From Candidatus Colwelliibacteriota bacterium (GTDB lineage Bacteria > Patescibacteriota > Minisyncoccia > UBA6257 > Colwellbacteraceae), in NCBI GenBank assembly GCA_016176505.1, contig JACOXB010000009.1, forward strand, positions 1 through 33,799: 33,799 nt of DNA. The letters run 5' to 3'. The notes under the pieces are model-generated. The model made no database searches. It saw only the letters and a list, made by a program, of their open reading frames with translations, and was not told where the DNA came from. This document shows positions 1-22,312 of the stretch, in pieces. Position 1 is the first letter of the stretch. Each line of letters begins with the position of its first letter. The translations under genes were made by a program, and so were the position numbers.

Positions 1-834
1 CGCGGTCGGGTGATTAAAGATACTTGGTGGGATTGGCCAAAGATTATTAAAAAGCCAAGCCCGGATGTTTTTAAAAAAGAAATCAAGGGATTAAAGATTA
101 CTGACGTTAAGCGCCGGGGCAAGAATATCCTGATTTATTTAAGCCGAGATTACGTTCTTTTGATCCATCAAAAATTAACTGGTCATCTTTTAGTTGGAAA
201 GTGGCAGGTCAAGAAAGTAGCAGGTAGTAAGCATCAAGTAGTAAGCACGATTAAAGGTTTGCTCGAGGAGAGAGTTAATGATTATATTCGCTTCATTTTA
301 TATCTTGATAACGGCCAGATGGTGGGGCTATCTGATTTAAGAAGATTCGCTAAAGTTTTATTAGTTAAAAAAGACGAACTTAATAAACTGCCGGACATTG
401 CGCTTTTGGGGCCAGAGCCGCTTGATCCCAAATTCACCTTTGCCGAATTTAAAAAGCGCATTGGCGCGAGAAAGCGGCCGATTAAACAGGTTTTAATGGA
501 TCAAGCCGTTCTTGTCGGGATTGGCAATATTTATTCTGATGACATTCTCTGGCTCGCCAAAGTTCACCCCTTGCGGCGCGCCGGCGATTTGGGCGAAGCT
601 GAGCTCCGAAAAATTTGGCGAGCGACAAAAAGCGTTTTAAATAAGGCAATTAAACTTCGCGGCACCTCAACCGCTGACTATCGGGATACAGCTGGGAAAC
701 CGGGTAAGTATGGTCGGGAAATTTTAGCCTATCGTTTAACTGGCAAGCCTTGTCAGCGCTGTAAAACCCTGATTAAAAGATTAAGAGTCGGAGGCCGCTC
801 AGCCCATTTTTGCCCCAAGTGCCAGTCTATCTAA
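1..834 (+). CDS. mutM: Formamidopyrimidine-DNA glycosylase, 5' end cut off by window
   Basis: The reading frame is open from base 1; the N-terminal catalytic PELPEVE segment is missing. Contains DQAVLVGIGNIYSDDILW and a C-terminal zinc finger (CQRCKTLIKRLRVGGRSAHFCPKCQ). Confidence 0.93.
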   Translation, partial: RGRVIKDTWWDWPKIIKKPSPDVFKKEIKGLKITDVKRRGKNILIYLSRDYVLLIHQKLTGHLLVGKWQVKKVAGSKHQVVSTIKGLLEERVNDYIRFILYLDNGQMVGLSDLRRFAKVLLVKKDELNKLPDIALLGPEPLDPKFTFAEFKKRIGARKRPIKQVLMDQAVLVGIGNIYSDDILWLAKVHPLRRAGDLGEAELRKIWRATKSVLNKAIKLRGTSTADYRDTAGKPGKYGREILAYRLTGKPCQRCKTLIKRLRVGGRSAHFCPKCQSI

Positions 835-842
835 AAATGCGA

Positions 843-868
843 AGACCCGCTTTTGGCGGGTCTTTCTT
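843..868 (+). terminator. Intrinsic terminator after mutM
   Basis: agacccgc-ttttg-gcgggtct followed by ttc. Confidence 0.8.
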
Positions 869-880
869 CAAAGAACTGCA

Positions 881-916
881 GGAGAGGCGGGCCGACTCCG
901 GTCGGCCCGCCTCTCC
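881..916 (-). terminator. Hairpin at the 3' end of GC-rich cassette 1
   Basis: Perfect 16-bp stem ggagaggcgggccgac-tccg-gtcggcccgcctctcc, just past the stop of the minus-strand ORF at 922. Confidence 0.7.
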
Positions 917-921
917 GGTGG

Positions 922-1200
922 CTAGCGGTCGTCCTCCTCCTCGCTCTGGCGGAGTAGGGCGAGGTCGAACATCTCGTAGTCGTCGAGGACCTTCTCGGGT
1001 AGCTTACGCCGGTGGCGGGCCTCGGTGAGAGCGAGGCTCACGGCCGCGAGCGTCATCATCACGAAGAAGATCGCGCCGACGGCGTAGGCCCAGCGGGGCA
1101 GCGGCTGGAAGTAGCTCCAGCCGAAAGCCAGGGCCAGCGCCAGCATCACGACCACAATCCCCATGGCGATGTTGCGATCGAGCTTGTCCTCGTCGTTCAC
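922..1200 (-). CDS. Small two-TM membrane protein (cassette 1, ORF 4)
   Basis: 92 aa, GTG start overlapping the previous stop as GTGA; two hydrophobic segments. Confidence 0.75.
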   Translation of the reverse strand: MNDEDKLDRNIAMGIVVVMLALALAFGWSYFQPLPRWAYAVGAIFFVMMTLAAVSLALTEARHRRKLPEKVLDDYEMFDLALLRQSEEEDDR

Positions 1201-1316
1201 CGTGTCACCTCCTCCTCCTCGTCGTCATCCTGGTGGAGCAGGTCATCTCGCTCCTCGTCGTCGAGGTCGTCCTCCTCGAGCTCGGCCTGGATCAGTTTCC
1301 AGTCCTTCTGCTCCAC
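1197..1316 (-). CDS. Very acidic 39-aa microprotein (cassette 1, ORF 3)
   Basis: GAAGGAGGGGGAAGCT-GTG; translation MEQKDWKLIQAELEEDDLDDEERDDLLHQDDDEEEEVTR; stop overlaps next start. Not in supplied ORF track. Confidence 0.65.
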   Translation of the reverse strand: MEQKDWKLIQAELEEDDLDDEERDDLLHQDDDEEEEVTR

Positions 1317-1360
1317 AGCTTCCCCCTCCTTCAGATGGTTGCTCGCCGGGCGAGGACGCT

Positions 1361-1546
1361 CTACGTCTCCTGGATGTAGACGGTGAACTGCTTTCCACCA
1401 TCCTTGTTTCCAGTGACGATGACGAGCGCCGGCGCGCCCACCATGACGGATTTTCCGCTCGCCCTGATGGGGATGGTGACCACCCCCGATTCCGGCGGGA
1501 ACGCCGTCGCGATCCGGTCGCGGATCGTCTCCGCAGTCTCGATCAT
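1361..1546 (-). CDS. 61-aa hypothetical protein (cassette 1, ORF 2)
   Basis: Start re-assigned to MIETAETIRDRIATAFPPESG... downstream of GAGGTGAAGGG; the longer track ORF 1361..1732 uses an upstream out-of-context start. Confidence 0.7.
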   Translation of the reverse strand: MIETAETIRDRIATAFPPESGVVTIPIRASGKSVMVGAPALVIVTGNKDGGKQFTVYIQET

Positions 1547-1719
1547 CCCTTCACCTCGGCTTCCGGTCGGCCGGTCACCCATCCGCCGATCGTTTGGGCA
1601 GACTTGGACACTATGTAGATAGTGCCCACGGCCAGCCCACAGAGGATCGCGATGCAGAGCGCGGTCCATAGAGCGATCGCCGTGATCCGCATCAGAAAGA
1701 AAAACCAATCCGGGACCAT
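1543..1719 (-). CDS. 58-aa single-TM microprotein (cassette 1, ORF 1)
   Basis: GAGGAGGTGAAGAGAGGAG-ATG; MVPDWFFFLMRITAIALWTALCIAILCGLAVGTIYIVSKSAQTIGGWVTGRPEAEVKG; ATGA overlap with next ORF. Not in supplied track. Confidence 0.7.
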   Translation of the reverse strand: MVPDWFFFLMRITAIALWTALCIAILCGLAVGTIYIVSKSAQTIGGWVTGRPEAEVKG

Positions 1720-1861
1720 CTCCTCTCTTCACCTCCTCTCGTGATTGCCGATCTAATTTAGGAACTAGGATTTAGGAACTTAGGAATTAGAGAACTCCGG
1801 CCCTAAATCACATCGGCAACCACGAAACTCCTTATTAATAAGCTTAAAGAACAACCCGTTA

Positions 1862-1890
1862 TCTATAGCATTTTCCAGTCAAAATGTCAA
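1862..1890 (-). promoter_or_regulatory. Sigma70-type promoter of cassette 1
   Basis: Minus strand TTGACA-N17-TATAGA with TGC before the -10 (extended -10). Confidence 0.8.
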
Positions 1891-1916: not shown

Positions 1917-2064
1917 GCCCAGCGGATTACTGTCGTAGGGAACATCCCGCAGGCCAAAGCCGGCTTGGTCTCCGACTCAAGTCGGAGCGGCTGGCCGAGG
2001 GGGAAGAAAGTTTTGCCGCTGGAGCAAAACTATTCTGGTTCCCATAGACAGCAAGCTGCTGGGC
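1917..2064. repeat. Structured repeat, copy A, upstream of pyrG
   Basis: Aligns along its length with the reverse complement of 5079-5250; ends form an inverted repeat (GCCCAGCGGATTACTGTC / GACAGCAAGCTGCTGGGC). Confidence 0.75.
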
Positions 2065-5078: not shown

Positions 5079-5250
5079 GCGCCCGCCAACTTATTGCCTA
5101 TCGGGACCAGAATAATCCGGCTCCAGCGGCCGGATTTTCTTCTCCCTCGGCCTGCTCGCTCCGACTTAAGTCGGACACCAAGCCGAGCTAGGCCTGCGGG
5201 ATGTCCCGTACGGCAGCAAGTTAGTGTAGGCAGTAAGTTGGTGGGCGTCG
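5079..5250. repeat. Structured repeat, copy B, between holA and rpsT
   Basis: Near-terminal inverted repeat cgcccgccaacttattgcc / ggcagtaagttggtgggcg; reverse complement aligns with copy A (1917-2064). Confidence 0.75.
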
Positions 5251-5610: not shown

Positions 5611-5724
5611 CTATGTGAACCTGATCACGGTGAACATGATGATCACGAGCGCGGCTGCCATCGCGAGGGCCAGCCAGCCTAGGGGACCAAGGCTGTCGAG
5701 GTCTGAAAGATCACGACGAGCCAT
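5611..5724 (-). CDS. 37-aa single-TM microprotein (cassette 2)
   Basis: GAGGAGGGAGCG-ATG; MARRDLSDLDSLGPLGWLALAMAAALVIIMFTVIRFT. Not in supplied track. Confidence 0.65.
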   Translation of the reverse strand: MARRDLSDLDSLGPLGWLALAMAAALVIIMFTVIRFT

Positions 5725-5734
5725 CGCTCCCTCC

Positions 5735-5872
5735 TCAGCTGTAGCGGAGGCCGCGGCCGCGCCTACCGCGACGACGGTCCCGGTAAGCCTTCCGCCGGCG
5801 CTCCTTCTCGCCGAACGGGTTCTCGACCGGTTGCCCGTTGCCGTTTTTCCGCTTGTTATTCTTCTTACCCAC
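5735..5872 (-). CDS. 45-aa highly basic microprotein (cassette 2)
   Basis: AGGAGGGGATCT-GTG; MGKKNNKRKNGNGQPVENPFGEKERRRKAYRDRRRGRRGRGLRYS. Not in supplied track. Confidence 0.6.
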   Translation of the reverse strand: MGKKNNKRKNGNGQPVENPFGEKERRRKAYRDRRRGRRGRGLRYS

Positions 5873-5937
5873 AGATCCCCTCCTACTGGGGCTACCGACT
5901 ACCGCCTTGCGCTTGCCGGGCGCGTCTCTCCTCCTCC

Positions 5938-6132
5938 CTAAACGCCGTAGCCTTTCTCGCGGGCTTCGAGGCCCGGGACGGGACGGCCTCTCCTCTCCTT
6001 GGCCTCGAGTGCCTCGATCAACTTCTCGATCTCGTCCAGAACGCGAGCGGCGTCGGGGTCGGGGGCGCGGCGCAACAGGTTGCGGATCGTATACCGCGCC
6101 GCCCTAAGCGCCTCGAGTGGTGGTAGCAACAT
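5938..6132 (-). CDS. 64-aa helical hypothetical protein (cassette 2)
   Basis: GGAGAGGAGGCATCTAAG-ATG; MLLPPLEALRAARYTIRNLLRRAPDPDAARVLDEIEKLIEALEAKERRG... Confidence 0.7.
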   Translation of the reverse strand: MLLPPLEALRAARYTIRNLLRRAPDPDAARVLDEIEKLIEALEAKERRGRPVPGLEAREKGYGV

Positions 6133-6152
6133 CTTAGATGCCTCCTCTCCTT

Positions 6153-6509
6153 TTAGCCGGACCAGAAGCTCTCGTTCGGATCGAACGGCAGGACGAAGAC
6201 CTTTACCAGCTTGGCGTTGGGGAAGGCTTCCCGGACGGCTGTTCCGACCGCTGCCGCGACCCGCAGCCGTACTTCCCTTGTTCGAGCTGGGTAGGCGAAG
6301 AGGTCGTCGATTTCGACGATCATATCGCCGAGCGGCCTCGCCTTATCTAGGTCGCGGACGTCTAGCGGGAAGGCGACCGTGACTTGGCGCTCATCAAGGC
6401 CAAGCTCCTCGATCCCGACCACGGCCTTTTTGATCTCGATTTCCACTCCGTCGAGATCGACGAAGTTCTGACCGTAGTGCCGCGTTCCCCAGACTTTAAT
6501 GAACGGCAT
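6153..6509 (-). CDS. 118-aa hypothetical protein, possibly tautomerase-like (cassette 2)
   Basis: MPFIKVWGTRHYGQNFVDLDGVEIEIKKAVVG...; preceded by GGGGGGAG. Fold assignment tentative. Confidence 0.7.
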   Translation of the reverse strand: MPFIKVWGTRHYGQNFVDLDGVEIEIKKAVVGIEELGLDERQVTVAFPLDVRDLDKARPLGDMIVEIDDLFAYPARTREVRLRVAAAVGTAVREAFPNAKLVKVFVLPFDPNESFWSG

Positions 6510-7417: not shown

Positions 7418-7450
7418 ATAAAAATACTGAACCCCACCGAAGTGGGGGTT
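7418..7450 (-). terminator. Intrinsic terminator of the candidate ncRNA
   Basis: Minus strand AACCCCCAC-TTCG-GTGGGGTT-CAGTATTTTTATAAAA. Confidence 0.85.
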
Positions 7451-7875
7451 TTGGGGCGGCGGGCGGAGCTGCTTGGAAGCTTCGCCCGCCGCCGCTGTAT
7501 CTTCTCGGCGCCTCTATTTTAGCGCCGGGTACCGTCGGGGACTGCCGTCCCCCCGGACCTCTTGATCGCCGTCGAAGTACTGCAGCGGGGAAAAACAGGC
7601 GACGTCGGTTTTTGTGAACCGTCTAGGAAGTCGCCTGCCGCGAGCGGCGCGTCGCGGTCCCCCGCTCCTTGCGTCTTTTAAGCGCCGCCGTATCAGGAAA
7701 TCGTCGGCTCCCAGCAACCGTCCCGGTTGACGCACCCTCCGGACAGGAGGATCTAAACAGTCTAGGCGCTCGAGCCGGGCACTCGAGTGCGCGCCATCTG
7801 GGCAGTGGGGGTAACAGGGACGCTGTCGCGGCCCATGTCTCGTGGCTCACGGCATAACCCCCGCCACGATCAATA
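7418..7875 (-). ncRNA. Candidate structured non-coding RNA of about 450 nt, family not recognised
   Basis: Consensus promoter upstream, UUCG-capped terminator, many long GC helices, and ORFs inside are Arg/Pro-rich without a well-spaced SD. Confidence 0.65.
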
Positions 7876-20870: not shown

Positions 20871-21326
20871 TTACTGCGGACAAGTTCTGCCCTCGGCGCC
20901 CATGGTGTTCGCCAAGGTGCCGGGTGGGTAGATCCAGAGCTTGACCGTTTCGCCAGCTGGGCCGGCGAACCGGAGCTGGCCTCTCACGACTCCCAACCAG
21001 TCGTTGATGGAGCATCGAGCTCCACCAGCGAGCCTGACCAGGGTCTGGTCTGGGCCCTGGAGAGCGAAGTCCCAGTTGTATGGAACGTTCTCCCCGATCG
21101 AGACCGGTCGGCTCCACTGGTCGAAGCCGCGGAGCTCGACCGTGGCTTTCAGCTCGCCCTCGGTTTCTTCCGCCGCTTCGGCTCGCGTCCCCTTGGGGAG
21201 CTTGTCAGCGTACATCGCGAGGCCGATCGCGGCGGGGATGAGGGCAAGAACGACCACCCACTTCCACGCCTTCTTCGGCACGGACCCGAGTGTCGTCTCG
21301 GGCCTCTTCTCGGTATCAGCCGCCAT
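20871..21326 (-). CDS. Single-TM hypothetical protein (cassette 5)
   Basis: Start re-assigned to MAADTEKRPETTLG after GGAGGAGGTGG; one TM then an extracytoplasmic domain; TGATG overlap with upstream SPFH gene. Confidence 0.75.
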   Translation of the reverse strand: MAADTEKRPETTLGSVPKKAWKWVVVLALIPAAIGLAMYADKLPKGTRAEAAEETEGELKATVELRGFDQWSRPVSIGENVPYNWDFALQGPDQTLVRLAGGARCSINDWLGVVRGQLRFAGPAGETVKLWIYPPGTLANTMGAEGRTCPQ

Positions 21327-22312
21327 CAGATCCACCTCCTCCACCACGGTCTCCTCATCGGTCGGCCACCGCGGCCACCCAAGACGCTACCAACGATACC
21401 GGTGATCATATCCCTCGTTTCCGGAGACACGTTCAACCGGTTCTCGCTGATGGTCTGGATGATCTTCTTGCGCTCTGTCTGGATGATGCGCATGGCCTCT
21501 TCGTTCGAGAAGCCACGCGCATTGAGGGCGGCCACCCTAGCTGCGATGTGTTCGAGCTCGATGGTCTCGGCCGCTCGCTCCCGTTCCTCGATGGCCGCCT
21601 TCTCGGCGGCCTCGGCGAGTGCCCCCAGGACTTTCATCTCACCGACGTTCACTCGGTTGATGACGACCCCGAGAGCAACGCTCGCGAGCGTCCCGTTTCC
21701 GGCCCTCATCAGAGCGATTTCGGCCGGATCGAGTGGCGTCAGGACATCTCGTCCCGACAGAGTGTTGATCACGATCTGGAGCGCCTCGCCTCTAGCCCGG
21801 AGCGCCTCTTCCCAGTTCTGTGGGCCGTAGGCTCGGGTGATAGCCCACTCACGGATCGCCTCGCCGACGGCATCGGTGAGGATGTTATTGACCCCACTCT
21901 CACCGCCAGAGTTCAAGTAGGCGATGAGGTTACTCGGCGTGTAGGTCACCGAGACCGGCACGCTGAGCTCGGCGAGGTCTGGGGTTCGAACATCCTCAGG
22001 CGCGAGGTCCAAGTTCTTCCGGACCACGTTCACGAGGATGACCCCGTACACCCAGGGGAAGAACGGCAGGAATCGCCACCCTTCCTCAAGGACGATGTTC
22101 TGCCTTCGACCGAGGAACGTCAGCGCTCCTCGATGCGGCGGGTCGGCTGGGATTTTCTTCAGCCCCTGAAGGACGTAGAGTCCGGTCAGGAGCAGAAGGG
22201 TCGAGATCCCGAACCAGAGGTTCCGACTCCAAGCCCCGGCATTCAGGGCGAGGAGAACGATGATTGCTCCGGTAACCGTGTTAACCATCCCTCTTCTCGT
22301 CACTTCAGTCAC
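21326..22312 (-). CDS. SPFH/Band 7 (prohibitin-like) membrane protein (cassette 5)
   Basis: Two N-terminal TM segments, ...GLKKIPADPPHRGALTFLGRRQNIVLEEGWRFLPFFPW...; Glu/Ala coiled coil EAAEKAAIEERERAAETIELEHIAARVAAL. Start may be 22303. Confidence 0.82.
   Translation of the reverse strand: MTEVTRRGMVNTVTGAIIVLLALNAGAWSRNLWFGISTLLLLTGLYVLQGLKKIPADPPHRGALTFLGRRQNIVLEEGWRFLPFFPWVYGVILVNVVRKNLDLAPEDVRTPDLAELSVPVSVTYTPSNLIAYLNSGGESGVNNILTDAVGEAIREWAITRAYGPQNWEEALRARGEALQIVINTLSGRDVLTPLDPAEIALMRAGNGTLASVALGVVINRVNVGEMKVLGALAEAAEKAAIEERERAAETIELEHIAARVAALNARGFSNEEAMRIIQTERKKIIQTISENRLNVSPETRDMITGIVGSVLGGRGGRPMRRPWWRRWI

Follow-up and report, generated by a model that had tools for sequence, protein, structure and literature searches.

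The window analysed here (the whole 33,799-nt stretch, from an 18-contig, 466-kb draft genome of a Candidatus Colwelliibacteriota bacterium) carries between mutM and pyrG a cassette of four small open reading frames (ORF1 to ORF4) on the minus strand, convergent with mutM and divergent from pyrG (Table 1). A preliminary description, made from the sequence, had proposed four translationally coupled microproteins at this site, two of them under a 60-aa ORF cutoff and all preceded by Shine-Dalgarno (SD)-like tracts. The four frames are present as described: an ATGA overlap (1546-1543) joins ORF1 to ORF2, a GTGA overlap (1200-1197) joins ORF3 to ORF4, and ORF2 and ORF3 are separated by a 44-nt gap. 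The tracts proved to be strong SDs, one at each of the four starts, with duplex energies of -12.1 to -17.5 kcal/mol where the median for the region is -5.0 kcal/mol.

Table 1. Features of the cassette and copies of the neighbouring structured repeat (positions in the window unless a contig label is given)
Feature	Position	Strand	Basis and details
ORF1, 58 aa	1543..1719	-	SD -15.7 kcal/mol; codon score +0.23 per codon
ORF2, 61 aa	1361..1546	-	SD -12.1 kcal/mol; codon score +0.30 per codon
ORF3, 39 aa	1197..1316	-	SD AAGGAGG, -12.6 kcal/mol; codon score +0.48 per codon
ORF4, 92 aa	922..1200	-	SD AGGAGGTGA, -17.5 kcal/mol; codon score +0.40 per codon; GC3 0.92
Predicted sigma-70 promoter	1862..1890	-	Sequence reading and leader scan; TTGACA (1890-1885), 17-nt spacer, TATAGA (1867-1862)
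5' leader hairpin, 91 nt	1737..1827	-	RNA fold; 3' end abuts the ORF1 SD
GC-rich 16-bp stem-loop	881..916	-	Fold of 830-925, minus strand; right after the ORF4 stop
Second stem-loop	833..863	-	Sequence and fold; followed by UCGCAUUUUUA U-run
Structured repeat, copy in window	1917-2064	+	
Structured repeat, copy in window	5081-5229	-	
Structured repeat, other copies	L032:290-441; L032:7887-8040; L028:7085-7232; L028:10235-10385; L016:8832-8980; L029:11152-11302		
Structured repeat, partial copy	L016:8013-8102		

The model used to score codon usage was trained on 13 GC-rich genes from elsewhere in the genome and checked by leave-one-out. In a sliding window, the best minus-strand frame ran 2, 1, 0 and 2, changing exactly at the ORF boundaries, and the GC3 of the cassette genes was 0.75-0.92. 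Competing ORFs had mostly negative codon scores, the exception being a 48-codon plus-strand mirror of ORF3 that scores nearly the same as ORF3 itself, so that the codon signal leaves the strand ambiguous; ORF3 was assigned to the minus strand because of its own SD and its coupling to, and position before, ORF4. The ORF2 frame is also open as a 123-aa ORF from a GTG at 1732, but the extension (1547-1732) scores -0.16 per codon and is non-coding by this measure, which supports the 61-aa start and means that a longest-ORF caller would err here. When an SD of -11 kcal/mol or better and close spacing were demanded, the real sequence held a chain of four SD-preceded ORFs (762 nt), and none of 400 dinucleotide shuffles matched it (maximum 2). 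Since no homologue is available for dN/dS or frame conservation, the coding claim rests on codon periodicity, the SDs and the architecture of the unit, and by these the cassette is very likely a real four-gene coding operon; the overlapping stop and start codons, with an SD at each start, further mark it as one that is predicted to be translationally coupled.

The predicted promoter carries an upstream TG (extended -10) and was found by the leader scan with a score of 11 and a spacer of 17; a stricter scan, in which T was required at the last -10 position, lists neither this promoter nor the terminators. The leader is ~135 nt long, and its RNA fold (1720-1860) has an energy of -47.3 kcal/mol (z -3.4; 98-nt leader z -5.6). 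Downstream of ORF4, the minus-strand fold of 830-925 reaches -56 kcal/mol (z -7.0), and the second of its two stem-loops likely doubles as the terminator of mutM on the opposite strand. Tails of the form CG(C/T)(A/G)TTTTTA, similar to that of the cassette, follow many other GC-rich units of this genome. With promoter, leader hairpin and two terminator-like hairpins all predicted, the cassette would form a single self-contained unit.

The four products combine membrane proteins with a strongly acidic one, as the preliminary description had noted, and hydropathy and composition agree with this. ORF1 has one transmembrane (TM) helix at about residues 7-36 (19-residue hydropathy peak 2.35), and ORF4 has two (hydropathy peaks at 10-30 and 36-60) followed by a basic and then an acidic tail; its single-sequence structure model is a helical hairpin with a charged third helix (pLDDT 73). 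ORF3 is hyperacidic (net charge about -16, pI 4.05). ORF2 is soluble, and its single-sequence model, a helix plus beta-hairpin, is of low confidence and unreliable (pLDDT 54). No paralogue of the cassette proteins was found among the genome's own ORFs. The suggestion that the four products form a small membrane-associated complex is at most plausible.

The same description had recognised no family, and the searches bear this out: none of the four proteins had a significant match in NCBIfam, PHROGs or PADLOC or scored above the Pfam cutoffs. Protein searches of genome collections, for which ORF2 and ORF4 were the queries, returned no credible relative from 27 genomes of the family, 244 genomes of the order or GTDB genome contigs. 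Nothing was found for ORF1, ORF2 or ORF4 in viral contigs, for ORF2 in plasmids or for ORF4 in phage records, a search of solved structures gave nothing credible, and none of 40 relatives had a match to the DNA of the entire cassette. Several candidates for ORF4 were rejected. Pfam family PF07332 (Phage_holin_3_6), likewise a small membrane protein with a TM composition similar to that of ORF4, scored 20.5 bits, below its gathering score of 28.4, and no lysis gene lies nearby; a match of 69 aa in the shortest frame (G213 C83, L086) was put down to similarity in TM composition, and other weak matches in Pfam, NCBIfam and genomes were judged on inspection to be generic TM similarity.

A cassette that combines small TM and charged proteins at a variable site amid core genes could be a compact antiphage, exclusion or toxin-antitoxin module, in which small TM effectors work with an acidic partner, and the sub-threshold holin-like score of ORF4 leans the same way. 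However, no known antiphage model in PADLOC matched any of the four proteins (nothing at E ≤ 1), the PHROGs matches are weak and to entries of unknown function, ORF4 was not found in phage records, and four genes are ill-suited to a toxin-antitoxin pair. We consider such a module distinctly unlikely.

The mutM-pyrG site was compared with that of relatives over stretches of about 20 kb around pyrG rather than whole genomes. The gap between the two genes is 1255 bp here and about 55-105 bp in six relatives (G001, G042, G022, G041, G009 and G013); in another relative, G004, it is 805 bp. The cassette was absent from the mutM-pyrG gaps of all family members examined, G004 included, and its ends showed no integrase, transposase or target duplication. 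The cassette is very probably a lineage-specific acquired unit.

Beside the cassette lies a copy of a ~150-nt structured repeat with a conserved core and covarying outer stems (compensatory changes in 27 of 56 pairs), present in the genome as eight full copies and one partial copy; the copy at 1917-2064 had no match in Rfam. Because G004 carries a 70% copy of the repeat (L057:10594-10750) inside its mutM-pyrG gap without the cassette, the repeat is not counted as part of the cassette. A GC-rich unit is found within 600 nt of five of the nine copies where 14% would be expected (p 0.004), an enrichment that is suggestive only.

At about 63% GC, the cassette stands out from a background of 46-47%, and it has company. 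With the genome read in stretches (about 7 kb masked), about 30 islands exceed 59% GC; a few look ordinary or like RNA, and the units are at 60-65%. A filtered list gave 48 candidates which, minus two that do not fit, make up 32 transcription units, many of them with ordinary genes to either side within one contig. Their genes have a GC3 of about 0.7-0.96 and a median SD energy of -10.8, against -7.0 kcal/mol for long ordinary ORFs, and structured leaders (z < -2) precede 11 of the 32 units compared with 16 of 186 controls (Mann-Whitney p 1e-4). Under an identical filter, 46 island-like ORFs were found in 448 kb of this genome and none in about 200 kb from 11 family members. A Pfam scan of 25 such proteins outside the cassette gave four above a cutoff, namely an SPFH protein, a metallophosphatase, a cold-shock domain and, only just, DUF6381.

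Relatives of the SPFH protein, a 118-aa protein and a 394-aa protein occur patchily, most of them outside the family but within the order; two island genes have such scattered relatives in the order's other families and none in their own. These relatives resemble their own hosts more closely in GC content. Such a distribution fits transferred accessory genes and would favour lateral gain over local birth.

A second GC-rich four-gene cassette (5611-6509, minus strand) encodes the 118-aa protein, whose relatives are scattered among other families, and then proteins of 64 aa, 45 aa (strongly basic) and 37 aa (TM). The unit at 20871-22312 (minus strand) is GC-rich and encodes the SPFH/band-7 protein (Pfam E 2e-9), whose relatives are patchy in the order, together with a 151-aa membrane protein. 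Two regions appear RNA-like: 7440-7870, GC-rich with strong hairpins, no convincing ORFs and no significant Rfam match, and L016:14701-15300, an island of up to 73% GC that holds no convincing ORF and is possibly a structured RNA. Small helical proteins at L025:2348-2859, L025:4393-4635 and L034:6089-6316 look alike by eye and may form a paralogous family.

Horizontally acquired regions have been reported to make up as much as 13% of genome length in Patescibacteria (PMC12455944). Beside such genomic islands, and the individually transferred genes of this phylum, the units described here are distinct in being short, with one to a few genes mostly of no recognised family and with a strongly GC-rich codon dialect, and no restriction or mobility genes were seen in those examined. 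A broader proposal would be that the lineage uses a dedicated pool of GC-rich ORFan cassettes with a shared promoter, leader hairpin, strong SDs and GC-rich terminators, placed between core genes and in several cases near the ~150-nt repeat, the mutM-pyrG cassette being one cargo of a so far undescribed system that mobilises cassettes in Patescibacteria. We rate this proposal as improbable.

Birth de novo from local non-coding DNA between mutM and pyrG would account both for the absence of a homologue from every search made and for relatives whose gap contains no such genes. The composition of the cassette speaks against it, with GC and GC3 far from the genomic background and matching dozens of other units, some of which have relatives in other families, and a finished set of promoter, SDs and terminators is not expected of young random ORFs; we regard this origin as very unlikely. 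Chance ORFs are another candidate, in that high GC removes stop codons and tandem ORFs then mean little, and antisense or alternative ORFs of 79-151 aa are indeed present in the same DNA. Yet the codon model gives negative scores to those long ORFs and positive ones to the four of the cassette, the shuffled sequences yielded no chain longer than two, and TM segments are clean in two of the products; for the set of four as a whole, chance is refuted, with a residual probability that is slight. An assembly or binning artefact that joined foreign GC-rich DNA to this genome is suggested by the strong compositional contrast and the 18-contig draft, but it is hard to reconcile with about 30 units that have a common promoter, SD and terminator style, many of them between ordinary genes of one contig, and it too is highly improbable. 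That successive same-strand ORFs in differing frames are the pieces of one larger decayed gene is barely credible, given a strong SD and start at each frame's boundary, codon bias that is intact throughout, and searches in which no larger homologue of ORF2 or ORF4 appeared.

We therefore favour, with a probability of roughly 70%, a lineage-specific, moron-like, self-contained unit of four ORFan genes inserted between mutM and pyrG, whose products may act at the membrane. Morons are extra genes that lie between genes adjacent in related genomes and are usually expressed independently (PMC2629481); in phage P22, for example, the pid gene encodes an 86-aa ORFan, with its start predicted on the strength of a canonical SD (PMC3573128). 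Like phage morons, among them the P22 pid locus and the ant moron of the P22 group, the cassette separates genes that are neighbours in relatives and differs from its surroundings in base composition. In contrast to phage morons, its neighbours are bacterial housekeeping genes, it comprises four genes, it is strongly GC-rich, and no phage relative turned up for those of its proteins that were searched. The cassette is not classed as a moron because no phage or prophage context was found, its flanks being mutM and pyrG.

Under the moron-like reading, the sigma-70 promoter would give rise to one short mRNA, which the long leader hairpin would stabilise while leaving the adjoining SD of ORF1 open, and the strong SDs and start-stop overlaps would lead to coupled, probably high-level synthesis of the four proteins in fixed proportion. 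ORF1, by its one helix, and ORF4, by its two, would insert into the cytoplasmic membrane, and ORF2 and the acidic ORF3 would dock on them from the cytoplasm, with the basic segment EARHRRKLPEK that follows the second helix of ORF4 as a possible site for ORF3. The unit would behave as a moron does, its added genes bringing a promoter and terminator of their own into a space between conserved neighbours. That the products act together at the membrane is a tentative proposal, to which we give slightly less than an even chance; the trait conferred would most likely be of a cell-envelope or exclusion type, and any specific role of that kind is unlikely to be the right one.

Annotation by a length cutoff would miss half of this operon. 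Streamlined genomes are expected to shed cargo of this kind, and a 466-kb genome that holds some 30 mostly family-less units would be a good place to study the origin of ORFan small proteins. The GC-rich units may also offer a route to ask which host- or phage-facing traits such bacteria gain.
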